Origin: a virus | Reading direction: 5' to 3' (one strand) | IMG/VR virus record: IMGVR_UViG_3300045118_000033 | Coordinates: 1-29,633 of that record | Length of the DNA stretch: 29,633 bases | In this document: one piece after another, positions 3,808 through 24,314 of the stretch | How the letters are laid out: every line of letters starts with the position of its first letter | How positions within the stretch are numbered: the first letter of the stretch is position 1 | Position numbers and translations under genes: made by a program | Notes under the pieces: generated by a model | Database searches by the model: none | What the model was told of the DNA's origin: nothing | The model's input: only the letters and a program-made list of their open reading frames with translations

Positions 3808-4049
3808 CAAAGCCCCTTCTTGTCTAGTTCGACGATCTTGTTCTTGATGGACTCTACGAATGGATCCAAGTCTTCAAGATCCAGTGCCCAGCGTGTAGAG
3901 CTAATGACAGCGTAAAATCCACCGCCACCATTGGCGTATTCAATCTTGATGCCTTGCATGGTCTGAGTAAGCGGCCCGCAACAGTCTTGGGGTTGCTCTC
4001 GGTATTCAAATGGGAACCCATCTTCAGGGGTTGCGTATTTACGAGACAT
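3807..4049 (-). CDS. Hypothetical phage protein (80 aa)
   Basis: The start is supported by GGAG six bases upstream of the ATG. The protein is acidic to neutral, with a glycine run (ANGGGGFYAVISS) in a beta-like centre and a helical, charged C-terminus (FVESIKNKIVELDKK). No family is recognised. It overlaps the preceding gene by 11 nt and the following microprotein by 1 nt, which implies translational coupling. Confidence 0.65.
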   Translation of the reverse strand: MSRKYATPEDGFPFEYREQPQDCCGPLTQTMQGIKIEYANGGGGFYAVISSTRWALDLEDLDPFVESIKNKIVELDKKGL

Positions 4050-4221
4050 TGGTTTCTCCAGGTATAAACATGCGGCACTCCTGTTTCTCAGGACTCATGC
4101 CAATGGAAAGATCTGTATATGGTAGACGGTGATGTCCCTTGGGGATGTCTGTATGGCGCTGGCACAAATGGCGCTTGAGGCAATGCTGCCCATAGCATCT
4201 CGTTACATCATAGTTGAGCAT
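4039..4221 (-). CDS. Small Cys-rich protein, likely zinc-binding
   Basis: A 60-aa protein with Cys at 9, 14, 20 and 49 and several His, in the pattern C-x4-C-x5-C ... C-x-x-F-I-P. This resembles a small phage family with the layout C..C..R..C.R....Y.D......C..FIP. A bound metal is therefore likely; the role is unknown. It overlaps the upstream gene by 14 nt and the downstream gene by 11 nt. Confidence 0.65.
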   Translation of the reverse strand: MLNYDVTRCYGQHCLKRHLCQRHTDIPKGHHRLPYTDLSIGMSPEKQECRMFIPGETNVS

Positions 4222-4528
4222 CTACATCACCCACATCATTGATGATTTCAAGCAACTTCACTGCCTCATCCCAGGCCTTGATGAATCCACCTTCATCCTT
4301 GAATTTACCGTCCAAATCTTTCTGGAGCTGCCACAGGAATACACCACCTAGACAGCCATCCACTGCCTCCTTGGCTTTCTCGATGGTGATTCCCTTCTTG
4401 TCTGCTCCAAGTTCGTTTGCTAGCTTACCAACCATTTCCAGTGACTTTGGAAGATTGTCAAACGAATGGATCATCTTTGTGTTGAGCGCAACGTCTACTG
4501 ATCCCTTAAGAATGCCTTCAATGGTCAT
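4208..4528 (-). CDS. Hypothetical protein (106 aa)
   Basis: A mostly helical soluble protein with alternating acidic and basic segments and an acidic C-terminus (IINDVGDVDAQL). No signal, membrane segment or known motif is visible. Its ATG overlaps the stop of the OB-fold-like gene upstream (ATGA), so the two are coupled. It may work with that neighbour, but this rests on context only. Confidence 0.65.
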   Translation of the reverse strand: MTIEGILKGSVDVALNTKMIHSFDNLPKSLEMVGKLANELGADKKGITIEKAKEAVDGCLGGVFLWQLQKDLDGKFKDEGGFIKAWDEAVKLLEIINDVGDVDAQL

Positions 4529-4869
4529 TTACGCTCCTTTGGAACAAATTTGGATAGGACTTCAATGGACTGCTCGCCATAGCACATGATGTTGTTCCAC
4601 ACGCCACCGGCCTTGTCTGGCTTGGTAGACGGTTTCCCCGTAACCCGTACATAGTCATTAGGGCCAGGACCAACATCAACACCGTAAGCAGAGACGCGAA
4701 CAGTAAAAGTGCTGTGGCCAGCAATATCCGATACCGCTGATGGCAGGTAGAGCGTAAATTGCATAACCTCCGAGCCGTTAACCTCAATCTTGCGTGAACC
4801 CCACTTCGAGACTCTGCCGACATAAGACGCTCCTGTGAAAAAGGGCTTATCGGGCTTGATGTAAGGCAT
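4525..4869 (-). CDS. Possible OB-fold / ssDNA-binding-like protein
   Basis: A 114-aa beta-rich protein. Alternating hydrophobic strands (GRVSKWGSRKIEVNG, MQFTLYLPS, TFTVRVSAYG) are followed by a basic, glycine-containing loop and a W-N-x-I-M-C-Y-G strand. The pattern resembles OB-fold nucleic-acid-binding proteins, but no diagnostic motif is present and the usual acidic SSB tip is missing; the protein ends in KERK. GGAGG eight bases before the ATG lies inside the end of the preceding DUF1364 fragment. Confidence 0.5.
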   Translation of the reverse strand: MPYIKPDKPFFTGASYVGRVSKWGSRKIEVNGSEVMQFTLYLPSAVSDIAGHSTFTVRVSAYGVDVGPGPNDYVRVTGKPSTKPDKAGGVWNNIMCYGEQSIEVLSKFVPKERK

Positions 4870-5031
4870 TTACTTAACCTCCAGGTTGCCAGTCTGCAAT
4901 AGCCATAGGACCGACTGGTAAAGTCCCTCGTTATATGTTTCCTTAGCCCATTGCCCATTAGCATCCACAACCTTGTGGCACTCATCACACAGGTAGCATG
5001 GAAGGTCATGAGCCTTGATACCGGTTATCAT
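4870..5031 (-). pseudogene. Duplicated C-terminal half of a DUF1364/YbcO-like nuclease
   Basis: This 53-codon frame matches the C-terminal half of the complete gene at 5488-5799: KAHDLPCYLC versus KAHDIPCYLC, and NEGLYQSVLWLLQTG versus NEGIYQSILWLLQTG. It lacks the N-terminal C-x2-C half. Its ATG overlaps the stop of the HNH gene (ATGA), so a peptide could still be made. It is best read as the displaced 3' end of a resident copy, left behind when the HNH cassette arrived. Its last codons carry the GGAGG that serves the next gene, which may explain why it is retained. Confidence 0.75.
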
Positions 5032-5504
5032 TCAATATGTTTCCATATCAATCTTTTCCTTATGATGCAAATAGTGGCCTGTGAAACTTTAAATCTTTCA
5101 GCAAGTTTAAAATTTCTATCATGGCTTGACCGTATAAATCTAACATCATCTTCGCTCAACTTACTATTGTGCACATCAACACCGACTGGACGATACGCTC
5201 TACCTTTAGCCACCATATCCATGGTGTTTTCCTTGTTGGTTCCCAAAAAAAGATGATTTGGATTGACACATTTGGGATTATCACACTTGTGGCAAACGAG
5301 TAGATTGTCAGCTATCTCGCCAAAATGTATTACATACGAAAGTCTATGCGCCTGCCAATTCTTTCCATTGCCAGAACCGAATCTTTGTTTTATCTGGCCA
5401 TATCCATGCCTAAAAAGAGAAGCTGTCCAGTTCCAGCATTCATCATCTCCTTTTACATCAACATGACTCCAAAACCTCTCAACTATGTCAACTTTCGCAA
5501 CCAA
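5028..5504 (-). CDS. HNH homing endonuclease (free-standing)
   Basis: A 158-aa protein of the HNH_3 type. CWNW is at 23-26 and the HRLSY segment at 53-57. The HNH/zinc core is C71-H-K-C74 with C79-V-NPNHL, followed by FLGT and DM..KGR. The C-terminal part (about 115-152) contains a helix-turn-helix-like LAERFKVSQATI segment, as in many homing enzymes that use a DNA-recognition tail. It cuts DNA and normally spreads by gene conversion into an uncut allele. The start is TTG at 5504 with GGAGG seven bases upstream, inside the end of the DUF1364 gene. It is flanked by a full DUF1364 gene and a second DUF1364 3' end, which points to that gene as the home site. Confidence 0.9.
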   Translation of the reverse strand: MVAKVDIVERFWSHVDVKGDDECWNWTASLFRHGYGQIKQRFGSGNGKNWQAHRLSYVIHFGEIADNLLVCHKCDNPKCVNPNHLFLGTNKENTMDMVAKGRAYRPVGVDVHNSKLSEDDVRFIRSSHDRNFKLAERFKVSQATICIIRKRLIWKHIE

Positions 5505-6020: not shown

Positions 6021-6354
6021 GGACATGGACCCCAAACAGGTTTAGGACCTTCTCCCACCAAGGCCTGCTAAGCCCAAGGCGTCTATTGAGTTCTTTCATG
6101 TTTTCAGGGCTCAACCGCATCTTTGCGCTTTTATCATTCTTTGCTTCACGTAGCAGCTTGGTGAACCTCCTATCCATCACTTCAGCCCTGTAAACAATCT
6201 CCCATCCACTAGGGATCTTCCCGCCGTGCTGGCGCTTGAAGTAGGTGGTAGCCACTGCCCTCTGGGGCATGTGTGATTCTCTATCGGCGGGAAGGATGTA
6301 GTAGGTTCCCCTATTCTTACCTTTGGCATCTAGCAGCACATACGCTTCAATCAT
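6010..6354 (-). CDS. Hypothetical basic protein (114 aa)
   Basis: A basic, Arg/Lys-rich protein. It begins with a beta-like region (IEAYVLLDAKGKNRGTYY) and continues into a helical segment (RFTKLLREAKNDKSAKM). It starts 8 nt inside the end of the rusA-like gene and overlaps the following gene, so the three are probably translated together. No known family. The proximity to a resolvase suggests a DNA-related role, as inference only. Confidence 0.6.
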   Translation of the reverse strand: MIEAYVLLDAKGKNRGTYYILPADRESHMPQRAVATTYFKRQHGGKIPSGWEIVYRAEVMDRRFTKLLREAKNDKSAKMRLSPENMKELNRRLGLSRPWWEKVLNLFGVHVHAR

Positions 6355-6736
6355 CCAATTCCTCCACTACCAGAGTGATGTATCCCTCTTCGCCCCATGG
6401 GGCATAGAGCTTTGTCTCATTGCTGTGAACTACTTTAGAGTCATCCGCGATGATGATCCCCTTCATGGAGTTCTCTAGCAGGTAGCTCAAGTTTGACTTA
6501 TCTGGTCTGACCACATGATGCTTGGTGTTCTTATGGCATTTGGGACGTTTCATGTGAAACCAGACATAAAGCGAAATCGGTCCTGCCATTGGTTCATTTG
6601 TCCATGTAGCCTTGAAATGCTCTTGGTAGGCTAGGACAGCCTTCTTGCACTCTGGACGCTGATAGGTTCCATTGCGCGTAACCATGGGGGCCTTGTTAGG
6701 CACAGCCTCAAATGGAATGGTGGTTTCGTATCTCAT
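6347..6736 (-). CDS. rusA: RusA-family Holliday junction resolvase-like protein
   Basis: The 129-aa length and layout fit the RusA family, dimeric Mg2+-dependent nucleases that cut four-way junctions. Diagnostic segments are RPDKSNL (77-83), GIIIADDSKVV (93-103) and a late T/K strand region. RusA uses D70, D72, K76 and D91 (E. coli numbering). Here the first Asp (D79) and the D98/D99 pair are present, but the residue matching D72 is S81 and the one matching K76 appears to be Y85. It could be a divergent active variant or a catalytically weakened one. Its ATG overlaps the stop of a 33-aa membrane peptide (ATGA). Confidence 0.75.
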   Translation of the reverse strand: MRYETTIPFEAVPNKAPMVTRNGTYQRPECKKAVLAYQEHFKATWTNEPMAGPISLYVWFHMKRPKCHKNTKHHVVRPDKSNLSYLLENSMKGIIIADDSKVVHSNETKLYAPWGEEGYITLVVEELDD

Positions 6737-7049: not shown

Positions 7050-7063
7050 TGGTAGTCCTATGG

Positions 7064-7092
7064 GTTAGAGAATGGACATATTCACATAGCAA
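7064..7092 (-). promoter_or_regulatory. Promoter-like element, copy 1
   Basis: On the minus strand TTGCTA (7092-7087), a 17-nt spacer and TCTAAC (7069-7064) fit a sigma70-like promoter. A second copy with the same spacing and nearly the same spacer occurs at 12372-12400. The predicted start would lie only about 8 nt before the ATG at 7049, which is a weakness. An alternative is a conserved short coding motif (EYVH-LTH) in this frame. Confidence 0.4.
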
Positions 7093-7167: not shown

Positions 7168-7734
7168 CTAGAATGGTATATCTTCAGTATTGCTTGACGC
7201 AGCCATATCAACACTCTTGTTGATCTTGTCCTGCAACCACTTAGGAACCTTGTCGAAGTCCTTATTCAACTCCATGTCATAGAACACAGGTGTATTCACT
7301 GGATCAGGACAGGTGACAGACTTCTTGAGGGGCATGACACTATCAAGATTGGCATAGGTGGTTTCCTTTGCCTCACTCCGGTAGTGTGTAACATTCACAA
7401 ACGCAGTTAATCCAAGTAGGCGTTTGAAGTCAAACTCATTGCAATCCTTAGCAAATCCAAGCCAGGAAGTAAGGACAGCCCGAAGCTTGCTCTTTTCGTT
7501 GAGAGAGAGGGTAAACTCCCGTCCAATGGAAAATGGACGACCATCAGCCATGAGTGCTTCTGGAAGTTCAAACCCGATGAAAACCTTGTGTTGAAGCTTT
7601 TCCTGCCCCTGTACGAAAACCCTTTGGCGGCCCAGGTCAATCACCTGGTAGCAACGAGCTGTATGAATCCCAGCCTCGACAAGCTCTCGCTCCTTGCTCT
7701 GTTGAGATTCTTCTTTGTAGTTCATGAGTCCCAT
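7168..7734 (-). CDS. SSB-like single-stranded DNA-binding protein
   Basis: A 188-aa protein whose last residues are acidic and end in DIPF, the hallmark of bacterial SSB tips that recruit partner proteins. The body has beta-strand patterns (RVFVQG, HKVFIGFELPE, FVNVTH) consistent with an OB-like fold, but it is not a standard SSB. Similar phage replication-region proteins are common. AGGAG lies five bases before the ATG at 7734, and an excellent promoter (7774-7803) lies directly upstream. It is the probable ssDNA-protection factor for the replication module; the assignment rests on the C-terminal tip and context. Confidence 0.6.
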   Translation of the reverse strand: MGLMNYKEESQQSKERELVEAGIHTARCYQVIDLGRQRVFVQGQEKLQHKVFIGFELPEALMADGRPFSIGREFTLSLNEKSKLRAVLTSWLGFAKDCNEFDFKRLLGLTAFVNVTHYRSEAKETTYANLDSVMPLKKSVTCPDPVNTPVFYDMELNKDFDKVPKWLQDKINKSVDMAASSNTEDIPF

Positions 7735-7807: not shown

Positions 7808-8053
7808 TTATTTGAGAACAACCTCGACTTTGTATCCACAGGCTTCAGCTAGAGTCTTGATGATTGGGATGGCTTCCGCATTGCATGACCATGCAGCAGG
7901 CTTTGGGTTCTTGGCAGGACGTAGATGCCAAGATTCTGGAATGGCGCGTCCTAACCTCAATTCCGCCTTCTTGATGGCCTGCTCCATAGACTTTGCAACC
8001 ACAGAGAATCTACGATTTCCTGATCTATCGAGAAGAATCCATTTGGTTGGCAT
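7808..8053 (-). CDS. Hypothetical protein (81 aa)
   Basis: An 81-aa basic protein with a beta-then-helix start (KWILLDRSGNRRFSVVAKS, then MEQAIKKAELRLG) and a C-terminal AIPIIKTLAEACGYKVEVV segment. The start is supported by GGAGG eight bases upstream, inside the end of the gene before it. A 28-bp piece of its 3' region is found again at 8345-8372, behind the PAPS-reductase-like gene. No known family. Confidence 0.6.
   Translation of the reverse strand: MPTKWILLDRSGNRRFSVVAKSMEQAIKKAELRLGRAIPESWHLRPAKNPKPAAWSCNAEAIPIIKTLAEACGYKVEVVLK
7846..7873 (-). repeat. 28-bp exact direct repeat, copy A
   Basis: Identical to 8345-8372 in the same orientation. Here it encodes the AIPIIKTLA segment of the 81-aa protein. 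See copy B and the findings. Confidence 0.9.
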
Positions 8054-8056: not shown

Positions 8057-8224
8057 CTAATCCTCCACCATGACAAACTTACGGATTCGAGTTTCGGACC
8101 ATAAACCACCATTCCTGCAATGTTTCGCACTGCACCTAGCATCCAATCTGGTGGAATGCGTGCTTCGCAAAAACCACTTAACTCCATCTGCTTTGCAAAA
8201 CAAACCCCATATATGCTTCCGCAT
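8057..8224 (-). CDS. Hypothetical small protein (55 aa)
   Basis: Starts at the ATG that overlaps the stop of the helicase-end fragment (TAATG), with GGAG inside that fragment. The protein is basic and rich in Cys, His and Trp (CKADGVKW, CSAKHC), so metal binding is possible. No family is recognised. The longer frame to 8284 would run into the helicase fragment and is not used. Confidence 0.55.
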   Translation of the reverse strand: MRKHIWGLFCKADGVKWFLRSTHSTRLDARCSAKHCRNGGLWSETRIRKFVMVED

Positions 8225-8344
8225 TAGAACATCTCCTTTTGAGGTATAGGCTTGGTTAGCCTTACTTCTGTTTCTCTTGAGCACTCATCAAACCGGGTTA
8301 ACTCTGGCGTGTATAGCATTGGGATTACCCCGCATGGGCCGTCA
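8224..8344 (-). pseudogene. Diverged second copy of the DnaB-like helicase 3' end
   Basis: Reads GPCGVIPMLYTPEL, then TRFDECSRETEVRL and PIPQKEMF, against the same C-terminal segment of the helicase at 9167-9285 with only a few changes. It has no helicase body and no start of its own. Its last bases, GGAGATGTTCTAATG on the minus strand, keep the SD and the TAATG overlap used by the next gene (8057-8224). It is separated from the real helicase by the PAPS-reductase-like gene and marks the junction of an insertion or recombination event. Confidence 0.85.
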
Positions 8345-8372
8345 CAGCTAGAGTCTTGATGATTGGGATGGC
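8345..8372 (-). repeat. 28-bp exact direct repeat, copy B
   Basis: Identical to 7846-7873. It lies between the end of the PAPS-reductase-like gene and the helicase-end fragment, in a different reading frame from copy A, and serves no evident coding role here. Confidence 0.9.
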
Positions 8373-8384
8373 CATCCATCGGAT

Positions 8385-9167
8385 CTAGTCGGATTCGTCC
8401 AGGAAGCAGCCACATCCGCCAACGTCAAAGAGATCAACTTGGCACCCAGCCTGAATTCGTTCTCGCAGTTTCCGCAGGGTGATCGGCGCGGTCTTCCCTC
8501 CGCGACGGTCCCGCAGAATTGAAACGTCCTTCCCGACGAACTGGCGGAACTCCTCTTCCATGGCCTCGTGGAGTGCATAGCGTTCTGGCATCTCCCGCAG
8601 GAGCAATGCGAAGTGCCCATGCCCACCCTTCACGCAAAACCCGCCACAGTTATTGTGGGAGAATCCCATCCCATACAGACGTGGTGGAACGATACCCTCT
8701 GATTCTAGCCACTTGAGCATGTCGGGCTTGAGCAAATAGGGTGCGTCCACCATGGGCGCGAGGTAAGTCCACCCCTGCTTGGCTTTCCGCTCGCGGAGGC
8801 GTTCGTACCGATGGACTTCGGACCAGTCGATGCCCACGTATACAAGGGTTTCCGTGGGGTCAAAATGCTTTTCCATCCACCTATCGGCGAGTTCACGCTT
8901 GAGAATCCTGGAGCAAGGATCCGGCCTAGACCCGCCCATCATCCGCTCGTCGAAGAACACCTGCCAGGGGTCACGGCCATCGCCGATAGATGTCAATGGA
9001 ACCCCAACATTGTTGGCCGCCTCGTGGATAAACCTGTAGAGATCCTCATCTTCGATATTTGTATCTGTGAACAAAAGGGTTAGGTTGTCGAGTCCATGGA
9101 CTTCTGCCACTCGCTTTGCAGCAGCCCATGATCCGATTCCACCCGAGAACATAACGACATGTTGCAT
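8385..9167 (-). CDS. PAPS-reductase-like PP-loop family protein
   Basis: A 260-aa member of the PAPS reductase / adenine nucleotide alpha-hydrolase superfamily, which activates substrates through an ATP-pyrophosphate loop. The PP-loop SGGIGS is at residues 8-13, followed by LLFTDT and a DPCSRILKREL segment. Cys-rich segments CGGFCVKGG and a terminal GGCGC suggest a metal or Fe-S centre or a redox role. Known relatives act in sulfate reduction, tRNA thiolation and DNA phosphorothioation (DndC), but partners for none of these pathways are visible here. The start is the ATG at 9167 overlapping the helicase stop (TAATG); the frame extends 20 codons further but only across the helicase end. Base composition is GC-richer than its neighbours (39 of 60 bases at 8461-8520), consistent with transfer. 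Confidence 0.8.
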   Translation of the reverse strand: MQHVVMFSGGIGSWAAAKRVAEVHGLDNLTLLFTDTNIEDEDLYRFIHEAANNVGVPLTSIGDGRDPWQVFFDERMMGGSRPDPCSRILKRELADRWMEKHFDPTETLVYVGIDWSEVHRYERLRERKAKQGWTYLAPMVDAPYLLKPDMLKWLESEGIVPPRLYGMGFSHNNCGGFCVKGGHGHFALLLREMPERYALHEAMEEEFRQFVGKDVSILRDRRGGKTAPITLRKLRERIQAGCQVDLFDVGGCGCFLDESD

Positions 9168-10525
9168 TAGAACATCTCCTCTTGAGGTATAGGACTGGTT
9201 AGCCGTAATTCTGTTTCCCTTGAGCACTCATCGAACCTGGTTAACTCGGGAGTGTATAGCATTGGGATGACCCCGCACGGTCCGCCACGGTGCTTGGCAA
9301 CAATCAACTCTCCACCGTTCTCCAATTCTCCATTGGCATTAGCCTTCCGATGGATAAAACAGACAATGTCTGCGTCCTGTTCAATGGCCCCCGAATCTCT
9401 CAGGTCCGAGAGCCTGGGCTTTCCATCGTTTCGCTTTTCAACCTCACGGTTAAGCTGAGAAAGAACTACAACCGGGATTCCATGGTCCTTGGCAAGCAGC
9501 TTGAAGGCTCGGCTAATGTCCGCAATCCGGTTTGTCTCATTCTTCTGAGACTTGCCTTCCGGAGTGGTGATTAGCTGGAGGTAATCGACCAGGATGAAAT
9601 CAATCTTCCCGTGCCTTGTGATGTATTGGTCTACCTGAGAGACAATTTCTCGAACTGTAATGGTTGCCCTGTCACCGATGGAGATTGGCAGGCTTGAGAG
9701 CGTTTCATTGGCCGCCGCAATCTTCGCAAGAACGGAAGGATCATAGACTCGCCCAGCCTCCCGCATATTGATACCAGCCTCAATTCCTACCGAGCGCTTC
9801 CAGAGCTCATCCTTGGACATTTCCAGGGAGAAGTAGGCGCTACTGTGCTTCATCTTCGCGGCTCCGAGCATCCATGAAACCGCAAGGGCTGACTTCCCAA
9901 CACCAGGCCGAGCCGCCAGGACGATGAACTGGCCAGGCTTGAAACCCTGCGTCATGGAATCCAGGCGATGAAACCCGGTCATGATGCCTTTGGAAGTCTT
10001 TCCCTGCATCTTCTCGGCCATATCCGCAACAAGGTCTGTCCCGAAGGATTCCAGGCTCACAAGGTTACCCTTATCGGACCCCAGTAGCATTTTTGACAGC
10101 CTTGAGGTCGTTTCCTCGATCAATGCTTCAGGGTTTGCTTCCTCATGGGCGGATTTGGTCATTAACTCATGGCCAACCTTCATCAAGTCACGATGCAGCT
10201 TCTTGCGCTTGATGGTTTCAACCAAAACCATTGGCTTGCGGACTTCCTCACAGGCCAATCGGTCACAGATAGCCGTAAACCCACCCAACTTGCCCCAGGT
10301 TGCGTCATTCAATGCTGACTTGATCGACACAGCATGAACCTCGCTTCGCTGCTCTGAGAGCAAACTAGCGGCCTTGAATATGGTCTGGTTCAGAGGGTCG
10401 ATGAAATCATCCGGCGTGAGTGTGATTGTGGCTTGGGCTAGGGCATGTTCTGCTCCTGGTGCGCAAATGGTAGCGATGAGTGAGTTTTCTACGTCAACGT
10501 CAGAGGGAAGTGGTAGCTTTGCCAT
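9167..10525 (-). CDS. dnaB: DnaB-like replicative helicase
   Basis: A 452-aa hexameric 5'-3' helicase of the DnaB/RecA-fold type. The N-terminal helical domain (about 1-100, ENSLIATI, DDFIDPLNQTIF) is followed by a linker. The ATPase domain has Walker A ARPGVGKS (205-212), the catalytic SLEM (E235) and Walker B VDYLQLI (313-319). Further on are LSQLNREVE and DLRDSGAIEQDADIV, typical of DnaB. Length is normal for the family. It lies directly downstream of the initiator-like gene, the usual order for phages that load their own helicase. The last 39 residues are duplicated at 8224-8344. The 3' end contains the SD for the PAPS-reductase-like gene. Confidence 0.95.
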   Translation of the reverse strand: MAKLPLPSDVDVENSLIATICAPGAEHALAQATITLTPDDFIDPLNQTIFKAASLLSEQRSEVHAVSIKSALNDATWGKLGGFTAICDRLACEEVRKPMVLVETIKRKKLHRDLMKVGHELMTKSAHEEANPEALIEETTSRLSKMLLGSDKGNLVSLESFGTDLVADMAEKMQGKTSKGIMTGFHRLDSMTQGFKPGQFIVLAARPGVGKSALAVSWMLGAAKMKHSSAYFSLEMSKDELWKRSVGIEAGINMREAGRVYDPSVLAKIAAANETLSSLPISIGDRATITVREIVSQVDQYITRHGKIDFILVDYLQLITTPEGKSQKNETNRIADISRAFKLLAKDHGIPVVVLSQLNREVEKRNDGKPRLSDLRDSGAIEQDADIVCFIHRKANANGELENGGELIVAKHRGGPCGVIPMLYTPELTRFDECSRETELRLTSPIPQEEMF

Positions 10526-10539: not shown

Positions 10540-11574
10540 CTATGGGTTACAGGTTTGATCCTGTGATTGTGCAGAATCCCGTTGCAGCATCTTTGCAGTC
10601 CTAAGCCCCCTAATGCTTGTCTGCCAAGGGGGGGTATCTCCATTAGCAGGTCCAAGCCAGAACTGGATTGCATTTGCGTAAGTGTTTGTCTCTTTGCACT
10701 TCTCGGCATAGCGAAGACCGGCTTCTTGGATTTCAGACAGGGAAGTCTGAAACTCGGAAGACTGGGTAATGGCAAGTAGCCTTGATCCAGCTTTGTCGAA
10801 GTCATGCTGGATCCGGCTTTCCCCTCTATGAGTTGGCCAAGCATCTCTGAGGGCAACCAAGACTGAGACTATTTCTTGTGAGAAGGCAGCTAGTTTGTCC
10901 TCGGTGGTCCTCCGCTTCCCTTTACCGGAGGGAGATCCCTTCAGGGGGTTTTTGGGGGTTGTGTTATGAATCAGTGAATCAGGAATCAGTGAATCAGGAG
11001 GATTTCCACCGTTCTCTAACGGTGAACTCACCGTGAACTCACCGTTAGGCACTGTTTGCTCACTATTCCCCCTATCAGAGGAGGCCCCCTTTAGGGGGTT
11101 GGGGGGTACGTTTGTTGTTTTTGACTCTGCATCTGCCTTTGTATCTGCCTCTGCTTGTCGTGACAGAGCGTAACGGAGCGTTACTTTCTCTGATTCTTCC
11201 AACTTGATCTTTTGCCTTTCGCGGTATCTAGCTTGCCTTTCCGCGTTCTTCGCATTGGTGTCTTCCCTGCTTAACTTCTTCCTGTACTTTGTGTAGTTGA
11301 CAAGCAGCCATCCGCCGTCAATAGGGATAATCCTCCGACCTTCAAGGTCCTGTGTTCGGCTGTATTTGTCTGGAGTGTTTAGGATTTTGAGCGCGTCTTC
11401 ACACTCTTCCACCTCGATTCTCGCGGCATCCGCAAGGCCAGGAATACTGGCCATCACCTCTCCATTGGCATCGGCGATTGCAAGCATTGTCACCCAAAGC
11501 AGGCGAACATGCCTGGGCGCTCTCCAAATCGTTGAATGGATGATTTCGTCGAACAATTTAGCATACCCCATCAT
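10540..11574 (-). CDS. Phage replication initiator-like protein (O-like)
   Basis: A 344-aa protein. The N-terminal part (about 1-110: LFDEIIHSTIW, LLWVTMLAIADANGEV, SIPGLADAA, then GGWLLVNYTKYR) is the winged-helix domain common in phage replisome-organiser proteins. The middle (about 140-225) is a low-complexity linker with repeated PPNPLKG/PKNPLKG and PDSLI motifs. The C-terminal helical part (about 230-344) probably contacts the helicase, as in lambda O. The linker DNA carries iterons and palindromes (10968-11050), a likely origin. GGAGG stands just before two adjacent ATGs (11574 and 11571); the second has better spacing. An operator-like palindrome cluster lies upstream. Confidence 0.7.
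   Translation of the reverse strand: MMGYAKLFDEIIHSTIWRAPRHVRLLWVTMLAIADANGEVMASIPGLADAARIEVEECEDALKILNTPDKYSRTQDLEGRRIIPIDGGWLLVNYTKYRKKLSREDTNAKNAERQARYRERQKIKLEESEKVTLRYALSRQAEADTKADAESKTTNVPPNPLKGASSDRGNSEQTVPNGEFTVSSPLENGGNPPDSLIPDSLIHNTTPKNPLKGSPSGKGKRRTTEDKLAAFSQEIVSVLVALRDAWPTHRGESRIQHDFDKAGSRLLAITQSSEFQTSLSEIQEAGLRYAEKCKETNTYANAIQFWLGPANGDTPPWQTSIRGLRTAKMLQRDSAQSQDQTCNP
10968..11050. repeat. Iteron cluster, candidate replication origin
   Basis: GAATCAGTGAATCAG occurs twice in tandem (10968-10982, 10983-10997), giving four GAATCAG units. GTGAACTCACC occurs twice in tandem (11022-11032, 11033-11043). The pair is flanked by a CACCGTT...AACGGTG inverted repeat and a closing ACCGTTAGG. 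All of this sits inside the linker-coding part of the initiator-like gene, the same arrangement as lambda oriL inside O. Function is inferred. Confidence 0.55.
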
Positions 11575-12356: not shown

Positions 12357-12371
12357 TGGATGCCTCAATGG

Positions 12372-12400
12372 GTTAGAGGATGGACATATTCATGCAGCAA
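12372..12400 (-). promoter_or_regulatory. Promoter-like element, copy 2
   Basis: TTGCTG (12400-12395), a 17-nt spacer and TCTAAC (12377-12372) on the minus strand. Spacing and most spacer bases are shared with copy 1 at 7064-7092. An 8-bp inverted repeat (ATTCATGC 12388-12395, GCATGAAT 12408-12415) overlaps the -35 and could be an operator. Confidence 0.4.
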
Positions 12401-12809: not shown

Positions 12810-13478
12810 TCACTTGTTGTAATTTTCGGCCTCAATTCGAGTAATAAAGAAGTGAATACCCCCCGAGGATTCATCCCAGCGATAGTCATTCCATGAGTCG
12901 GGTTTAACTGTTTCCCCTGCACGGTAGACGAAACTCGAATCATAAAAAGAGATTGCCTCGACTGCTCCAACGACTTCCAAGACATCGGCAAATTCAGCTC
13001 GACATTTCCTAGATGCGCCATGACTACGCTTGGCATTGGCTGGAATCAGTAGCTTTACCAAAACATCGTTTCGGCACAGCTTCCACCCGATAACGTCGCC
13101 TTCTGGAAGGTGAGAAGTCGTGGCGATGGCTAGATCGGCGTTTTTGGCACCTTGCAAGTTGACACCGCTCAGGTCGGCACCGAGCAGGTTGGCATCGCGC
13201 AGGTTGGCATCGCGCAGGTTGGCGCTGCTCAGGTCGGCACCGCGCAGGTTGGCCCCGCTCAGGCAGGAACCACTTAGGTTGGCATGGCGCAGGTTGGCCC
13301 CGCGAAGGTCGGCACCGCGCAGGTCGGCACCACTTAGGTCGGAACCACTTAGGTTGGAACCGCTTAGGTCGGAACCGCGCAGGTCGGCCCCGCCCAGGCA
13401 GGCACGTTGGCCCCCAGCGCCTTCACACCAGAGGTTGTGATTTTCCTGGATTTCTGGGAGGTTTATATTGTGGTCCAT
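12810..13478 (-). CDS. Pentapeptide-repeat protein A with DUF5758-like C-terminal domain
   Basis: A 222-aa protein. Residues 1-26 are the shared header ([20 protein letters not shown]). About 27-118 are A(D/N)LxG pentapeptides that should form a right-handed quadrilateral beta-helix. About 120-222 form a separate domain with [40 protein letters not shown] and [15 protein letters not shown], matching the DUF5758 domain that often follows pentapeptide repeats. Only this paralog carries that domain. The SD (AAGGTGA) lies in the stop region of the preceding paralog B. Pentapeptide proteins such as Qnr and MfpA mimic DNA and bind topoisomerases; a similar role here is conjecture. Confidence 0.85.
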
Positions 13479-13484
13479 TTTAGC

Positions 13485-14054
13485 TCACCTTTTGGCTAGG
13501 TCGATATTCTTGGCTCCGGTTAGGTTGGCCCGGGTCATGTTGGCCTTGCGGAGATCGGCACCTTCCAGGTCGGCAAAACGAAGGTCGGCACCGCTCAAGT
13601 CGGCATTGCGCAGGTCGGCATTGCGCAGGTCGGTACGGCGAAGTTCGGCACCGCGAAGTTCGGCATTTCGCAGGTCGGCACCGCGAAGGTCGGCACGGCT
13701 CAGGTAGGCATGACTGAGGCGGGCACGGCTCAGGTTGGAACTACGAAGATCGGCACGGCTCAGGTTGGCATGACTGAGGCAGGCATGGCTCAGGCCAATA
13801 CGGCTCAGGTTGCCACCGACTAGTCTGGCCCCGCGAAGGTCAGCGCATCTCAGGTCAGCGCATCTCAGATCGGCACCGCTGAGGCAGGCACCATGAAGGT
13901 CGGCACCGTTCAGCTTGGCGCCGTGAAGGTTTGCGCCGTAGAGTTCGGAATAGCTCAGGTCCGCACCACACAGGTCTGCACGTTGGCCCCAATCGCCTAA
14001 ACACCATAGCTGGTGATTTTCCAGGATTTCTGGGAGGTTGATTCTATGATCCAT
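13485..14054 (-). CDS. Pentapeptide-repeat protein B
   Basis: A 189-aa protein with the shared header (INLPEILENHQLW, GQRADL) and then roughly thirty pentapeptides with more varied i+2 residues (C, Y, S, R, N) than its paralogs. It ends in the shared NLTGAKNIDLAKR tail. The tail DNA holds the AAAAGGTGA segment that is both its own stop and the SD of paralog A. It lies 6 nt from both neighbours, so A, B and C form a compact tandem. No extra domain. Function unknown; DNA mimicry is one possibility. Confidence 0.85.
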   Translation of the reverse strand: MDHRINLPEILENHQLWCLGDWGQRADLCGADLSYSELYGANLHGAKLNGADLHGACLSGADLRCADLRCADLRGARLVGGNLSRIGLSHACLSHANLSRADLRSSNLSRARLSHAYLSRADLRGADLRNAELRGAELRRTDLRNADLRNADLSGADLRFADLEGADLRKANMTRANLTGAKNIDLAKR

Positions 14055-14060
14055 TTTAGT

Positions 14061-14630
14061 TCACCTTTTGGCCAGGTCGGCATTCTTGGCTCCGGTTAGG
14101 TTTGCCCCGGTTAGGTTGGCACCAGTCATGTCGGCCCCTCGAAGGTCGGAATTGCTCAGATCGGCACCGATTAGACCGGAACCGCTCATGTTGGCATCGC
14201 TGAGGTTTGCACCGCGAAGGTCGGCACCGTAAAGGCAGGCGCAGCAAAGGTCGGCACCGCTCAAGTCGGCACCGCTCAAGTCGGCACCGCTCAAGTCGGC
14301 ACAGACCAGCTTGGAGCCCATCAAGTCCGCACCACTTAGGTTGGCACTGCTCAGGTCGGAATTGCTCAGGTCGGAATTGCTCAGATCGGCGCAGATCAGA
14401 TCGGCACAGTGCAGGTCGGAATTGCTCAGGTCGGAATTGCACAGATCGGCACAGTGCAGGTCGGCACAGTGCAGGTCGGAATTGCTCAGGTCGGAATTGC
14501 ACAGATCGGCACAGTGCAGGTCGGCACAGTGCAGGTCGGCATAGACCAGCTTGGCACGTTGGCCCCCAGCGCCTTCACGCCATAGCTTGTGATTTTCCTG
14601 GATTTCTGTGAGGTTGATTTTATGGTCCAT
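14061..14630 (-). CDS. Pentapeptide-repeat protein C with 60-bp tandem duplication
   Basis: A 189-aa protein. The ATG at 14630 gives the header MDHKINLTEIQENHKLW shared with the paralogs, preceded by AGGAG at good spacing; an ATG 18 nt upstream is in frame but has no SD. The repeats are unusual in having Cys, His and Ser at variable positions (DLHCADLHCADLCNSDL) in place of Gly. DNA 14401-14460 and 14461-14520 are identical, which adds 20 residues (four coils) by recent duplication. It ends with the shared AKNADLAKR tail. Confidence 0.85.
   Translation of the reverse strand: MDHKINLTEIQENHKLWREGAGGQRAKLVYADLHCADLHCADLCNSDLSNSDLHCADLHCADLCNSDLSNSDLHCADLICADLSNSDLSNSDLSSANLSGADLMGSKLVCADLSGADLSGADLSGADLCCACLYGADLRGANLSDANMSGSGLIGADLSNSDLRGADMTGANLTGANLTGAKNADLAKR
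14401..14539. repeat. Perfect 60-bp tandem repeat within pentapeptide gene C
   Basis: 14401-14460 and 14461-14520 are identical base for base, and 14521-14539 begins a third copy before diverging. The preceding 60 bp (14341-14400) are a degenerate copy. The unit equals four pentapeptides, so gain or loss keeps the frame and the beta-helix register. Confidence 0.95.
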
Positions 14631-14688
14631 TTTAGTTCTCCTAGTCATAAAGGGGAATTAGTTCGCTCTTCGGATCGAAAGGAGTTAA

Positions 14689-15111
14689 CTAAGCCTCGTA
14701 GATCGCACCACTCAGGTGGGCACATCGCAGGTTGGTACTGCTCAGGTCGACACCGAGCAGGTCGGCACCGCGAAGGTAGGCTCCGATCAGGTGGGCATCG
14801 CGCAGGTTGGCATCGCGCAGGTTGGCATCGCGCAGGTTGGCATAGCTCAGGTCGGCATGGCGCAGGTTGGCACCACTTAGGTCGGAACCACTTAGGTTGG
14901 CATGGCGCAGGTTGGCCCCGCGAAGGTCGGCATCGCGAAGGTCGGCACCACTTAGGTCGGAACCACTTAGGTTGGAACCGCTTAGGTCGGAACCGCTTAG
15001 GTCGGCGCTGCTCAGGTCGGCCCCGCCCAGGCAGGCACGTTGGCCCCCAGCGCCTTCACACCAGAGGTTGTGATTTTCCTGGATTTCTGTGAGGTTGATT
15101 TTATGGTCCAT
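14689..15111 (-). CDS. Pentapeptide-repeat protein D (short)
   Basis: A 140-aa protein whose first 65 residues are close to those of paralog A (same [14 protein letters not shown] header region), showing recent common origin. It stops after LSGAIYEA without the AKNADLAKR tail or an extra domain, so it may be a truncated paralog or a natural short form. GGAG precedes the ATG by 6 nt and lies in the last codons of the 80-aa gene upstream. Confidence 0.8.
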   Translation of the reverse strand: MDHKINLTEIQENHNLWCEGAGGQRACLGGADLSSADLSGSDLSGSNLSGSDLSGADLRDADLRGANLRHANLSGSDLSGANLRHADLSYANLRDANLRDANLRDAHLIGAYLRGADLLGVDLSSTNLRCAHLSGAIYEA

Positions 15112-15114
15112 GGG

Positions 15115-15357
15115 TTACTCCTGAATTTTCCTGCGAACTTCTTTGAAAATATAGGAAAGCTCCTCTTGAGTGATTCCAGCTAAGTCGCAGACGGACTTTG
15201 CCGCTTCTGAATACATCGCCGCTTCACTGGCTCGCCTCATGTTATGGCTTTCCGCAATGGCCACAGCGTTATGGCATAAGCCGGTAACGATGGTAACAAC
15301 AGTGTGATAATCCAGACCTTCACGGATTCGGTTCTGAGTCTTTTCGGCAATGGTCAT
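15115..15357 (-). CDS. Hypothetical protein (80 aa) between pentapeptide genes
   Basis: The start is fixed at 15357 by GGAAAGG eight bases upstream. The longer open frame upstream is an off-frame reading of pentapeptide DNA that gives VPTS repeats. The protein is helical and contains YHTVVTIVTGLCHNAVAIAE, a hydrophobic amphipathic helix, and ends in EVRRKIQE. The last codons, AGGAAAATTCAG, recur at 15668-15679 in front of paralog E, so a second copy of this gene may once have been there. Confidence 0.65.
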   Translation of the reverse strand: MTIAEKTQNRIREGLDYHTVVTIVTGLCHNAVAIAESHNMRRASEAAMYSEAAKSVCDLAGITQEELSYIFKEVRRKIQE

Positions 15358-15394
15358 TTCACAATCCTTTCCACGTTGAAGGTGGGAACGCGTT

Positions 15395-15658
15395 TTAGAG
15401 GTCGGCATCCCTGAGGTTGGCTCCACTGAGGTTGGCTCCACTGAGGTTGGCATCCTTGAGGTTGGCACTCCACAGGCTTGCACCTCTGAGGTTGGCACCT
15501 TGGAGGTTGGCACCCTGGAGGTTGGCACCACCGAGGTCGGCATCGCCGAGGATGGCACCACTAAGGTCGGCACCACTAAGGTCGGCACCACTAAGATCGC
15601 CATTTAAACAGAGTTCGTGATTCTCTCGAATTGTTTTAAGGTTGATTTTCGGGTCCAT
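15395..15658 (-). CDS. Pentapeptide-repeat protein E (short)
   Basis: An 87-aa protein, the shortest paralog. The header is partly preserved ([18 protein letters not shown]) but the GAGGQRA segment is missing, so the repeats begin sooner. About twelve pentapeptides follow, then it ends at NLRDADL. Its repeat sequence ([24 protein letters not shown]) is closer to paralog F than to A-D. The SD is weak. It could be a decayed or minimal member. Confidence 0.75.
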
Positions 15659-15684
15659 GATTTACATCTGAATTTTCCTACTCA

Positions 15685-16173
15685 TTACTTGAGTCTAGCG
15701 GGTGCGATTTCATCTGGCGTAAGATCCTCTACAATGCCTGGAACCAGGCGTTCGGCTTCATCCAGGTAGATTTTCTTGGAATCAAGTAGCTGAGCCTGTA
15801 GCTCAAGGTTTTCAAACTTGGGATTCATTAGCCTGAGCATGTGTAGCGTCTTGCCTATGTCACGAGCCAGCATAACGAGGCGAACCGCGCTAGACTGCTC
15901 AGATCCCTGCCTATATCTCAATATCCACCTCATACGCTGGGCAATGTTGCAATTGCGACACGATTTCAGGAGCTTGCGGCCATCATTATGTCTAGGTCTG
16001 CCGCAGCGGCAAAGCCCGGCCTTGCGGAAGCCATTAGCTCGTTTAGCATCCGCCTCTTGATCCTCTTCGAGGCAGGGATCACACGTCGTCGATCCCTCGA
16101 TAGGGTCGCGGATGCCGCATTTTACGCAAGTCCCAGCCAGTTTACGATTAAGGTATGTCTGCTGATAACTCAT
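15685..16173 (-). CDS. Double zinc-ribbon-like protein (162 aa)
   Basis: The N-terminal 80 residues hold four Cys pairs: C16-x2-C19 with C31-x2-C34, and C55-x-C57 with C72-x2-C75, consistent with two small zinc ribbons. The region between them is very basic. The C-terminal half is helical (LVMLARDIGKTLHMLRLMNP) and ends acidic. It may be a DNA- or RNA-binding regulator. Its ATG overlaps the stop of the 42-aa membrane peptide (ATGA). No family name can be given. Confidence 0.65.
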   Translation of the reverse strand: MSYQQTYLNRKLAGTCVKCGIRDPIEGSTTCDPCLEEDQEADAKRANGFRKAGLCRCGRPRHNDGRKLLKSCRNCNIAQRMRWILRYRQGSEQSSAVRLVMLARDIGKTLHMLRLMNPKFENLELQAQLLDSKKIYLDEAERLVPGIVEDLTPDEIAPARLK

Positions 16174-16298
16174 CCGAGCCCCAATACCTCAAGAGTGCAT
16201 GCAATGGCGTCTGGCAAGCCCTGCAAGATGCCGTAGAGGATAAGTGCACCTGCTATACCCAGGATCACCCAATGCCGCTCCAATCGAATCCTACGCAT
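16170..16298 (-). CDS. 42-aa single-pass membrane microprotein
   Basis: The start is set at 16298 because this ATG overlaps the end of the preceding gene by 8 nt; the longer frame upstream lies within that gene. A basic N-terminus (MRRIRLERHW) is followed by a hydrophobic stretch (VILGIAGALILYGILQGL), so it is probably an inner-membrane protein with its N-terminus inside. Function unknown. Confidence 0.55.
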   Translation of the reverse strand: MRRIRLERHWVILGIAGALILYGILQGLPDAIACTLEVLGLG

Positions 16299-16512
16299 CT
16301 TCTTCGGTCTCCTGTATAGCAAGCTGGCCGGGTCTGTAGTGTTCAATGGCATCCCTCAATTCTTTGGAAAGCATTTCCGTTGGAGTGTCATTGCCATCAA
16401 ACCATGACCTACGCCCATTCCATTCCATTGCAAATTCAACCGACCATCCCTGGGCATCGGTTTCAAACCTAACGCGCCATCCGTTATGCTCAACATATAT
16501 TGGTTTGCTCAT
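16291..16512 (-). CDS. Hypothetical protein (73 aa)
   Basis: A small soluble protein with a beta-rich first half (PIYVEHNGWRVRFETDAQGW) and a helical acidic second half (ELRDAIEHYRPGQ). No family is recognised. It starts 9 nt after paralog F and has AAGAG upstream of the ATG. It overlaps the membrane microprotein by 8 nt. Confidence 0.65.
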   Translation of the reverse strand: MSKPIYVEHNGWRVRFETDAQGWSVEFAMEWNGRRSWFDGNDTPTEMLSKELRDAIEHYRPGQLAIQETEEDA

Positions 16513-16521
16513 TACATACTC

Positions 16522-17271
16522 TTAGAACAATAGTGAAGGGGCATCACTGCGATGGTTATTGATGAACTCCGCTGCATACTTCTTCAAGACAAGCAAAGCA
16601 TCCTTGATTTCTGGGTCTTGATGGTATTGGTTATAAACGTGATATATAAGTTGCAACGATAAATGCCTATCAAGATTAATACGAGTTCCACCACACCAAA
16701 GGGGCAGGCTGGTGAAATCTAGGTTGGCACCCTGGAGGTTGGTACCCTGGAGGTTGGTACCCTGGAGGTTGGCACCCTGGAGGTTGGCACCCTGGAGGTT
16801 GGCACCCTGGAGGTTGTCACCACTGAGGTTGGCACCTCTGAGGTTGGCACCTTGGAGGTTGGCACCCTGGAGGTTGGAACCTCTGAGATTGGCACCCCTG
16901 AGGTCGGCACCACTGAGGTTGGCATCCTGGAGGTCTGCACCACTGAGGTTGGCATCCTGGAGGTCGGCACCACTGAGGTCGGCACCTAGGAGGTTGGAAC
17001 CCTGGAGGTTGGCATCCCATAGGTTGGCACCCGGTAGGTTGGCTCCACTAAGGTTGGCATCCTGGAGGTTGGCACTCCACAGGCTTGCACCTCTGAGGTT
17101 GGCACCTTGGAGGTTGGAACCCTGGAGGTTGGCACCACCGAGGTCGGCATCGCCGAGGTCTGCATCGCCGAGGTCTGCATCGCCGAGGTCTGCACCACTG
17201 AGGTCTGCACGTTCACCGCCATTGCCATTTCGCCAAAGTTTGTGGTTAGTAAGGATCGTTTGTAGGCCCAT
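16522..17271 (-). CDS. Pentapeptide-repeat protein F (largest) with unique C-terminal tail
   Basis: A 249-aa protein. The header is shortened (LQTILTNHKLWRNGNGGERADL) but is clearly the same element as in A-D. The regular A(D/N)L.G repeats run to about residue 185, with long stretches of NLQGA units that imply recent expansion. The last 60 residues (LPLWCGGTRINLD, LQLIYHVYNQYH, LLVLKKYAAEFI) are non-repetitive and helical, and are not shared by the other paralogs. AGGAG lies about 7 nt before the ATG. It is transcribed before the other five. Confidence 0.85.
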   Translation of the reverse strand: MGLQTILTNHKLWRNGNGGERADLSGADLGDADLGDADLGDADLGGANLQGSNLQGANLRGASLWSANLQDANLSGANLPGANLWDANLQGSNLLGADLSGADLQDANLSGADLQDANLSGADLRGANLRGSNLQGANLQGANLRGANLSGDNLQGANLQGANLQGANLQGTNLQGTNLQGANLDFTSLPLWCGGTRINLDRHLSLQLIYHVYNQYHQDPEIKDALLVLKKYAAEFINNHRSDAPSLLF

Positions 17272-18507: not shown

Positions 18508-18962
18508 CGAGTGAAGGCAACCTTGGTTGACTAACGAGGGGACAAGAAGACACACCCTTCTTTCATCTAATCAAGAAACAGAGAAGAGAGATCATCCAAG
18601 ACAGACAGACAGATACCGTATAGCCTCAAAACACCTAAGAGACACTGAGATACACCAAGATACACCAAGATACAAACACCCCTAAAAGATAGCCTCATCC
18701 CTCCCCCTCACCCTCATCCAAGCAATAAACGAACTGTCGTGCTATTAGATTTCATGCCGATATTCGCCTAATGTTCGATTCAGCTTTCGATGGCGTGTAT
18801 TGTGTAACCTTGTGGCCTACATGCTTGATATTCATCGTATTGCATGGGAAATAATAGGCGAAACAAGGCAGTATGAGCCCACCCATAAGAGCCCATAAAA
18901 CGCAACCCACCCCGGAGTGACTTTGGCAAATGTATGGGGGGATGGTGGAGCGGAGTTGCTAC

Positions 18963-19007
18963 CTTAACGAGCTAATGGATCTGGTTTTCAGACGTCTTAA
19001 CGAGCTA
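18963..19007. repeat. CTTAACGAGCTA direct repeats, 33-bp period
   Basis: CTTAACGAGCTA occurs at 18963-18974 and 18996-19007. The following 15 or so bases are also partly similar. They lie 260-300 bp before the small terminase gene, a position where packaging or late-promoter sites are often found. Confidence 0.5.
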
Positions 19008-19263
19008 TTGAATCCAGTTTCTATCGACTCAATGGTCTACATCCGCCTATGAATGCGTTAATGGCATAAACGTCTATGCCGGTATACATATGATTTACGA
19101 CAGATAATCATTATTCACATTAAATGAAGGGTCTCCCAAATCCCCGGGGAAACACTTTGGGTTATCTGCAATATAATCTTGCGAGGGTATGATAATGGAT
19201 TATTTGGAATAACTGGCGGGGGAGTAGTTCTGAGAATATGATGTGGGGTGGTAAGGAGGGTAT

Positions 19264-19647
19264 GTGGCGGGGAAAATGGTGAAGAGAGGGGATGAGAGTC
19301 CTAGTTGGCTGGGTGATGCTAGGGAGGTAGATAGGGATGTGTTGGAGGGGATGGATAGGGAGGGTAGGAACCTTTTGACGCAGCATTCAGGGGATGGGCT
19401 GTCGCTGAGGAAGAAGCAGAAGGCGGGTGCTGAGTATTTGGCTACCTTGGTGGGGCATCCTAAGTTCCGGGAGAGGTTCTTGGAGTGGGCAATGGAGAAC
19501 CCAGGGGATGCGTATAAGATTGCTTCAAGTGAGAGGCCGAAGGAGATTCATGTAGAAGAGGACATTAGGCAGATGGTGGTGTTGGTTCCTGCTTCTACTA
19601 CAGAGAGTGAGTGGCAGAAGCTCATTATTAATGAGGGGGAGAAGTAG
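19264..19647 (+). CDS. terS: Putative small terminase subunit
   Basis: Assigned mainly by position, directly before and overlapping the large terminase gene by one base. The 127-aa protein is helical, with a basic middle (LSLRKKQKAGAEYLATLVG) that could bind the packaging site and an acidic C-terminus that could contact TerL. The GTG start at 19264 has AAGGAGG upstream; an ATG at 19276 is an alternative. The coding strand is strikingly G-rich and C-poor (29 G and 3 C in 19321-19380), with many AGG arginine codons, unlike the large subunit. Confidence 0.65.
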   Translation: MAGKMVKRGDESPSWLGDAREVDRDVLEGMDREGRNLLTQHSGDGLSLRKKQKAGAEYLATLVGHPKFRERFLEWAMENPGDAYKIASSERPKEIHVEEDIRQMVVLVPASTTESEWQKLIINEGEK

Positions 19648-21098
19648 TGGTCGTCTTATGGAGTCCTCAGCCTAAACAGAGGTTGGTGTTAACGTGCCCT
19701 TATGATGAGATCTTGTTTGGTGGTGCAGCGGGTGGTGGTAAGTCTGATTGCCTGATTGGGGATTGGCTGGCACACATGCAGACCTATGGGAAGTATGCGA
19801 ATGGTGTTCTGTTTAGGAATAGCTACCCTGAGCTTCAGGAAATCCTAAGGCGTATGGAAGTGTTGTTCGAGCCGTTGAAAGCTAAGTGGAAAGAGAAGGA
19901 TGGGACTTGGACGTTCCATAATGGTGCTATCCTGCGTCTGACCTACCTTGATTGCTTCTCAGATGCTTTGAAGCATAGAGGAAACCAGTTCACATGGAGA
20001 GGGCACGACGAATTGACCATGCGACCTACGGATGAGGAATACGTGTTCCTGGATAGCCGTATGCGTTCTGCTAATGGGGTTCCCTGTAAGACCATCTCTA
20101 CGACCAACCCTGGTGGTCCTGGACATACTTGGGTGATGAAACGGTTCAAGATTGACATCTACCCTAACGGGATGACTCCGATCCATGAGTATTATGACCT
20201 AGAGAAGAACATAAGGATGGAGGCGCATGAGGTTCCTCCTGAGTGGAACAAGGCAGAGAAGGCAGACCTACCAAAGCATATTAGACGCAAGACGCGTATC
20301 TTCATCCCTTCTAAGCTCCAGGACAACGCATTCTTGGACTCAGATGGTATGTATCGAGGCAATCTGCTGTCCCTTCCAGAAGCCCAGAGACGGATGATGC
20401 TTGATGGACGATGGGACATTGTTGAAGGTGCTTTCTTTGATGAATGGGATCCTAATGTTCACACGATACGGGCTTTCACCCCTCCACCGGACTGGAAGAG
20501 ATGGATGGCGGGAGACTGGGGCACAACTAAACCCTATGCCTTTGTTTGGTTCACTGAGGCCCCAAACGGTGAGGTTTACGTATACCGTGAGCTATATGGA
20601 TGCAAAGAAGGGAAGGACAATGAGGGACTGAGAGAAAGCCCTGCTACCGTGGCAGAGAAGATCCTCCAGGTGGAGCAAGAGGCTGATGAATGGATTGGCG
20701 AACGGTATCTGGATGCTTCATGCTTTGATAACTATGAGATGGGAACGTCTGTAGCTGAGCAGTTCCGTCTCAATGGTGTCACCTTTCAGAGAAGCCAGAA
20801 GAAGTTCAAGTCGGGCTCGATCGCCATGTTCCGGGACTACCTCAAGGTAATCAATGGAACCAGTAGGTTCAAAGTGATGACAAATTGTCACCACTTGATG
20901 CGCCATATCCCGCTGGTGCAGATAGATAAGAGTAATGTGGAACAGTATGATAGTGATGGCGCCGACCACGACCTTGATGCTGTATTGTATGGAATCCGCA
21001 GAAATATTAGGACAAAAGAGGAAATTAACGAGGCGAGAGGTATTGGTAACTATAACCGTAGGCTTTTAGCTAAATATGGAGTGTATGGCGCTCATTAA
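19647..21098 (+). CDS. terL: Large terminase subunit (ATPase and nuclease)
   Basis: A 483-aa DNA-packaging motor. Walker A is GGAAGGGKS (25-33), Walker B ends in HDEL with D121/E122, and the coupling motif is TTNPGGPGH (152-160). The C-terminal RNase H-like nuclease shows GDWG (D290) and DHDLDAVLYG (440-449), candidate metal-binding acidic residues. Length is normal. The GTG start overlaps the terS stop (TAGTG), preceded by a GGGGGAG SD. It converts concatemers to packaged genomes at the portal. Its type suggests headful or cohesive packaging, which cannot be decided from sequence alone. Confidence 0.95.
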   Translation: MVVLWSPQPKQRLVLTCPYDEILFGGAAGGGKSDCLIGDWLAHMQTYGKYANGVLFRNSYPELQEILRRMEVLFEPLKAKWKEKDGTWTFHNGAILRLTYLDCFSDALKHRGNQFTWRGHDELTMRPTDEEYVFLDSRMRSANGVPCKTISTTNPGGPGHTWVMKRFKIDIYPNGMTPIHEYYDLEKNIRMEAHEVPPEWNKAEKADLPKHIRRKTRIFIPSKLQDNAFLDSDGMYRGNLLSLPEAQRRMMLDGRWDIVEGAFFDEWDPNVHTIRAFTPPPDWKRWMAGDWGTTKPYAFVWFTEAPNGEVYVYRELYGCKEGKDNEGLRESPATVAEKILQVEQEADEWIGERYLDASCFDNYEMGTSVAEQFRLNGVTFQRSQKKFKSGSIAMFRDYLKVINGTSRFKVMTNCHHLMRHIPLVQIDKSNVEQYDSDGADHDLDAVLYGIRRNIRTKEEINEARGIGNYNRRLLAKYGVYGAH

Positions 21099-21127
21099 TA
21101 TATGTCGCTATATTGGCATCCGAGGGT

Positions 21128-21229
21128 ATGAGCGTGAGTAAACCAAAGAAGACTCCTAAACCTAAGGCTGACCCCAAGAAGATGATGAATTTCCTTCTCA
21201 CGGGCAAAAAGACAAAGGTGAAGAAATGA
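21128..21229 (+). CDS. 33-aa highly basic microprotein
   Basis: A short frame packed with lysine and proline (SKPKKTPKPKADPKK, then GKKTKVKK), whose stop overlaps the ATG of the next gene (ATGA). An ATG at 21128 and a GTG at 21134 are both possible; the GTG has a better spacing to GAGGG. It lies between terL and portal genes. It may bind DNA or another virion protein by charge, or be a capsid-internal peptide; nothing more can be said. Confidence 0.55.
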   Translation: MSVSKPKKTPKPKADPKKMMNFLLTGKKTKVKK

Positions 21230-21591
21230 ACTACCTGTATGGCAATTACGGGCTTGGTCCATGGATTCCTTGGGCTACCGTCTACAATCCTGCGATCAAC
21301 CAAGTGAGTATGCCCGCTCAGTATGCCCAGCTTGCGGCTAGCTCGATGAGGCAGACCAATCCTACTACCCCTAACCCTGTATCACTGTCCATTCCTCACG
21401 AACAACCCATTACTCCAGCCTATACCATTCCAAAGGAACAGCCCATTAATGCCATTCGGGCTACTAATGGTATGCCTGCCAACTTTGGTCAATATAATGG
21501 GTATACTGGTGGATATGGGGCTCAGAATAACCAGTTTGGCAATGTAAACACTGAGATTGCTAATGCTATGCGCATGAGGTTGGGACTGTGA
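21226..21591 (+). CDS. Hypothetical virion-region protein (121 aa)
   Basis: A low-complexity protein rich in Asn, Gln, Pro, Gly and Tyr (NYLYGNYGLGPWIPW at the start; PTTPNPVSL, QYNGYTGGYGAQNNQFGN). No known domain. The composition and the position between terminase and portal suggest a small structural or internal head protein. Its stop overlaps the portal GTG (GTGA), so the two are coupled. Confidence 0.65.
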   Translation: MNYLYGNYGLGPWIPWATVYNPAINQVSMPAQYAQLAASSMRQTNPTTPNPVSLSIPHEQPITPAYTIPKEQPINAIRATNGMPANFGQYNGYTGGYGAQNNQFGNVNTEIANAMRMRLGL

Positions 21592-23595: not shown

Positions 23596-23640
23596 CATAA
23601 TCCGACCGAGGGGTCGTAAAACACCGATAAGGAGAGCCAA

Positions 23641-24303: not shown

Positions 24304-24314
24304 AGGAGACACAC

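Follow-up and report, generated by a model that had tools for sequence, protein, structure and literature searches.

The locus described here lies in a 29.6-kb virus record from IMG/VR (IMGVR_UViG_3300045118_000033, positions 1 to 29,633), all of which was analysed and is referred to as the window. The record belongs to a podovirus-like phage in which the terminase, head-tail adaptor and capsid proteins could be assigned to PHROGs families. All genes of the locus are on the minus strand, where the order of interest is helicase end, PP-loop gene, 12-nt spacer, a piece of gene B, helicase end, 55-amino acid gene and gene B. An initiator-like gene (10540-11574) belonging to the replication genes precedes an intact gene for a DnaB-like replicative helicase of 452 amino acids (9167-10525; Pfam DnaB_C, 8.8e-77; phrog_19, 1.5e-84). 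The ATG of the PP-loop (PAPS-reductase-like) gene, which encodes 260 amino acids (8385-9167), overlaps the helicase stop codon in the sequence TAATG. Its own stop codon is followed by the spacer (8373-8384), by a 28-nt exact copy of a stretch inside gene B (8345-8372) and by a repeat of the helicase 3' end (8221-8345), a fragment that has an intact frame and is without the 5' part of the helicase. The 55-amino acid gene (8057-8224), whose ATG overlaps the stop codon of the fragment, again as TAATG, and gene B (7808-8053, 81 amino acids) have no family match among Pfam and PHROGs profiles. A possible open reading frame of 51 codons runs through the helicase fragment from an ATG at 8379 (8224-8379) and is probably not a real gene because it has no usable Shine-Dalgarno (SD) sequence (energy +0.1). 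Further downstream are the genes for a 188-amino acid protein (7168-7734; phrog_862) and, still in the replication region, a RusA resolvase (6347-6736). The C-terminus of the 188-amino acid protein reads EDIPF by inspection, a tail typical of single-strand DNA binding proteins, and the protein is perhaps SSB-like.

Other repeats are present elsewhere in the window. A 33-nt repeat of 88% identity occurs at 7060-7092 and 12368-12400, each copy 11-12 nt upstream of a minus-strand ATG; the latter copy ends a reading frame of 20 codons and is perhaps a second duplicated gene end. An array of pentapeptide-repeat paralogues (PF00805) occupies 12810-17271 of the minus strand, with genes at 12810-13478, 13485-14054, 14061-14648, 14689-15111 and 16522-17271, and five copies of a 93-nt repeat lie at gene boundaries from 13418 to 15690.

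The PP-loop gene is intact, and its product matches the phrog_424 profile over residues 1-257, its full length (E = 1.5e-56). Phage proteins of the phrog_424 type are 45-66% identical to it, also over the full length, and homologues in other viral contigs 50-66%. They have in common an SGGxGS loop and the invariant C85, C174, C178, C252 and C254. Its AlphaFold2 model has a pLDDT of 91, and the best Foldseek matches of the model were the CysH structures 1sur and 6vpu, with LarE close to them (E = 3e-5 to 7e-5; TMq 0.39-0.49). The predicted structure is that of a PP-loop ATPase fold nearest to PAPS reductases and LarE. The motif ECG[LI]H, the catalytic motif near the C-terminus of CysH, a true PAPS reductase, is absent from the protein, and the Pfam PAPS_reduct profile scores 18.3 bits where the cut-off is 22.5. 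Since the motif is missing and the profile score is below the cut-off, the protein is called PAPS-reductase-like only, a predicted likeness that does not equate it with a PAPS reductase. Together, the modelled fold and the cysteines suggest a role in sulfur transfer or in an Fe-S-dependent modification. The protein also matches PDB entry 21fy, named PptA (E = 2.7e-13), and nothing was found in the literature on the meaning of this entry.

As claimed in a preliminary description of the locus, the PP-loop gene is GC-richer than its neighbours, with a GC content of 0.559 against 0.520 for the helicase and 0.458 for the 55-amino acid gene; as a sign of foreign origin, however, this is weak evidence because the phage's own capsid gene is already at 0.545. 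No consensus promoter or terminator was found around the gene on the minus strand between 7700 and 9600, an own promoter and terminator being a classic feature of morons. Likewise, no transposase or endonuclease gene, terminal inverted repeats or target duplication at the ends of the insert were found in 8224-9285. A gene for an HNH endonuclease, possibly a homing endonuclease, is located 3 kb from the insert (5028-5504, minus strand; PF13392; GC 0.388).

The preliminary description had the helicase ending at 9167, followed by the PP-loop gene and then by a diverged copy of the helicase end, and the alignment bears this out. Positions 8221-8345 and 9164-9288 form an ungapped direct repeat of 125 nt with 89% identity, consisting of the last 38 codons of the helicase and its stop codon, in which the longest exact run is 17 nt. 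Each copy had also been said to supply the SD and overlapping start of the gene that follows. Indeed, both finish in GGAGATGTTCTAATG, where a strong SD precedes the overlapping start: GAGGAG at 9176-9181 in copy 1 (9164-9288) serves the PP-loop gene, while AAGGAG at 8233-8238 in copy 2 (8221-8345) serves the 55-amino acid gene. The SD duplex energies of -9.1 kcal/mol for copy 1 and -8.7 kcal/mol for copy 2 are among the stronger of the region, the yardstick being -7.7 kcal/mol, the 5th percentile of random 20-mers. These values do not support the idea that the second copy has the better SD.

That the strong SD and the TAATG overlap have been kept may be read as retention of the second helicase end as a functional element, either a boundary sequence or a translated leader driving the 55-amino acid gene. 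Start-adjacent repeats are known in other phages; in cluster K mycobacteriophages, for example, start-associated sequences are repeats beside start codons (PMC3203893). About 20 nt would suffice for such an element, yet the amino acid sequence is conserved across all 38 codons, and the possible 51-codon frame that would be translated has no SD. Retention for function is compatible with the exchange proposed below and would account for why the fragment was kept but not for its origin; we regard it as rather unlikely.

A second duplication had escaped the preliminary description. Positions 8345-8372 are identical to 7846-7873 inside gene B, where the stretch reads AIPIIKTLA, and the chance expectation for this 28-nt exact repeat is about 6e-9. 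The B piece and the helicase fragment abut at 8345 with an overlap of at most 1 nt. Because a piece of gene B is fused to the helicase fragment there, position 8345 is an illegitimate, out-of-order joint, such as an unequal exchange or the templated joining of ends would produce. A B piece followed by a helicase end is the block order that an out-of-register exchange leaves, or the repair of a break by copying a nearby stretch. The same order exactly matches a tandem joint. Alternatively, a tandem duplication within one genome could have spanned the helicase end through gene B; the PP-loop gene would later have taken the place of the duplicated 55-amino acid gene and of most of the duplicated gene B, and the second helicase end would have been left to decay freely. 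Such a history requires an extra replacement step, and the differences between the copies also bear on it.

The two helicase ends differ at 13 of 114 coding nucleotides, with three amino acid changes and no stop codon. Their divergence was simulated from the present helicase end in a two-lineage version that assumes a single transition bias and equal mutation rates. Under these premises, the probability of three or fewer amino acid changes was 0.0005 with both copies neutral and 0.002-0.004 with one copy neutral, that is, with decay in place, for which about 7.6-7.8 changes are expected. With both copies under selection, the probability rose to 0.60, 0.18 and 0.065 at dN/dS values of 0.1, 0.2 and 0.3, respectively, the last standing for weak selection. 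This version supersedes a cruder estimate in which all changes were assigned to one copy (P = 0.0004). The two duplicated pieces are also unequally diverged, with 14 changes in 125 nt of helicase end against none in the 28 nt of the B piece (P about 0.04); they probably differ in age or source, and the inequality disfavours one simple duplication event. Tandem duplication followed by free decay, which would predict neither the few amino acid changes nor the unequal divergence, is on these grounds unlikely. Since the helicase copies differ mainly at silent sites, unlike a decaying duplicate in place, their divergence most likely took place in two separate phage lineages, with the joining later, and for this the pattern is good, though not conclusive, evidence.

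Searches for relatives covered IMG/VR, phage records and GTDB genomes. No close relative of the helicase was found in these collections, which may leave out records nearest to the window; the best matches were about 31-35% identical across most of its length, with local segments reaching 51%. Peptide patterns from the helicase C-terminal tail and gene B returned zero relatives, and none was recovered at the locus by gene B, the initiator or the 188-amino acid protein. The capsid search led to one identical record outside the locus (IMGVR_UViG_3300045006_000008) and to another, L084, of only 7 kb. Since neither a parent nor a relative with an empty site was found, the case for two lineages depends on how the copies differ over only 114 nt.

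The window itself derives from a metagenome, and a further rival reading is a chimera that arose during assembly or amplification from two strains present together. IMGVR_UViG_3300045006_000008 is an independent record and 100% identical over 10.7 kb, but it spans 18903-29633 of the window, continuing 2.5 kb past its end, and so misses the site at 8345. Against a chimera, the exact runs shared are just 17 nt between the helicase copies and 28 nt for the B piece, too short for the final k-mers that assemblers usually reach. Even if the assembly graph had erred through the 28-mer, real reads carrying the joint at 8345 would be needed. In addition, all frames and both SDs are intact. Because the exact runs are short and the joint itself requires real reads, an artefact of this kind appears very improbable.

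Probably, two related phages underwent a non-homologous (illegitimate) exchange, and the locus is the scar that it left. Of the two parents, one would have carried the helicase, the PP-loop gene and part of gene B, and the other the helicase, the 55-amino acid gene and gene B. An out-of-register joint at 8345, linking gene B sequence from the first parent to the helicase end of the second, would then yield the order helicase, PP-loop gene, B piece, helicase end, 55-amino acid gene and B. Each helicase end may be viewed as a ready translation start for whatever comes next. The displaced helicase end would survive because the SD and start of the 55-amino acid gene lie on it; since the helicase ends provide the starts, the exchange would have cost neither the helicase, the PP-loop gene nor the 55-amino acid gene, and expression of both downstream genes would have been preserved. 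In a variant that fits almost as well, and which the same judgement covers, one helicase end would have travelled with the PP-loop gene, and the break would have been patched with 28 nt templated by a nearby stretch. Further points count against these proposals. Exact identity over 28 nt is somewhat unexpected if the piece came from a lineage diverged by 11%, and in the unequal exchange the first parent must already have been without most of gene B. The preliminary description had proposed that recombination between related phages brought the PP-loop gene into an ancestral order of helicase and 55-amino acid gene. Recombination between relatives is supported by the mainly silent differences, and a simple insertion is an incomplete account of the 28-nt B piece at 8345.

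The arrangement also suggests how the gene may be lost. When recombination between the two copies was carried out in silico, every crossover point tested gave a 452-amino acid helicase (0-4 changes) followed by the 55-amino acid gene. Recombination between the helicase ends would thus cleanly delete the PP-loop gene, although its real coming and going is conjectural.

In unrelated phages, the PP-loop gene has different genomic neighbours each time, as is expected for a wandering accessory gene. Among 37 other records bearing the gene, many of them fragments, none matches the capsid protein of this phage and five have a distant helicase. The phrog_424 proteins of mycobacteriophages such as Optimus, Baka and Drago are likewise homologous over the full length and differ in their genomic neighbours. 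Direct repeats at both gene ends were scanned for in 68 testable loci out of 73 non-redundant PP-loop loci from other viruses, with gene-bounded controls. In this post hoc comparison of a small set, repeats were found at 7/68 PP-loop loci and at 3/164 neighbouring genes of similar size (P = 0.008). The gene-bounded design took over from an earlier and less strict scan, whose control positions were arbitrary (8/73 against 8/229). The repeats at PP-loop gene ends are mostly 16-47 nt, and several are at start codons. The strongest control match, in record L086, is a second gene (4025-4825), PP-loop-like by inspection, that stands beside a phrog_424-like PP-loop gene and between exact 70-nt repeats (3947-5045); the repeat ends near the next start codon. 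The higher frequency of repeats at PP-loop loci, along with L086, hints at cassette-like traffic at gene boundaries. It is a speculative and rather doubtful extension that phage PP-loop genes move as cassettes between copies of boundary sequences that bear start codons; if they did, the arrival of a cassette would break no gene and its precise loss would be possible. By inspection, recurrent intergenic repeats, ATTCAATCTGACACNGC...CGCGATCACCCTGT, also surround the PP-loop gene of L072 (4500-6850).

A comparable arrangement is known from mycobacteriophages of subcluster I1. The 3' ends of Island3 genes 67 and 68 contain a 60-bp sequence in common, while Brujita, which is without gene 68, has a single recombinant copy of it, and recombination at these copies has been invoked (Pope et al. 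2011, PMC3029335). In both cases, an extra gene occurs together with a repeated 3' end of the upstream gene, and at the present locus the two copies that flank the extra gene are in frame. The second copy in Island3 is the inserted gene's own 3' end and 60 bp long, whereas here it is 125 nt long, lies outside the inserted gene and has 28 nt of another gene fused to it. Island3 also has a near-identical one-copy relative in Brujita, and none was found here. Morons and short boundary sequences (cited in PMC3029335) offer a second parallel in that a widespread gene is set cleanly between two unbroken genes. Unlike morons, the PP-loop gene comes with neither a promoter nor a terminator on the coding strand, and its boundary is helicase coding sequence.

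The locus is ordinary phage mosaicism in an unusually legible form, and a longer and more informative case of the Island3/Brujita kind. While the mechanism is already known in outline, few cases are equally legible. It shows tailed phages adding a gene within an operon with the neighbours unbroken, the duplicated gene end bringing with it the translation start of the next gene.
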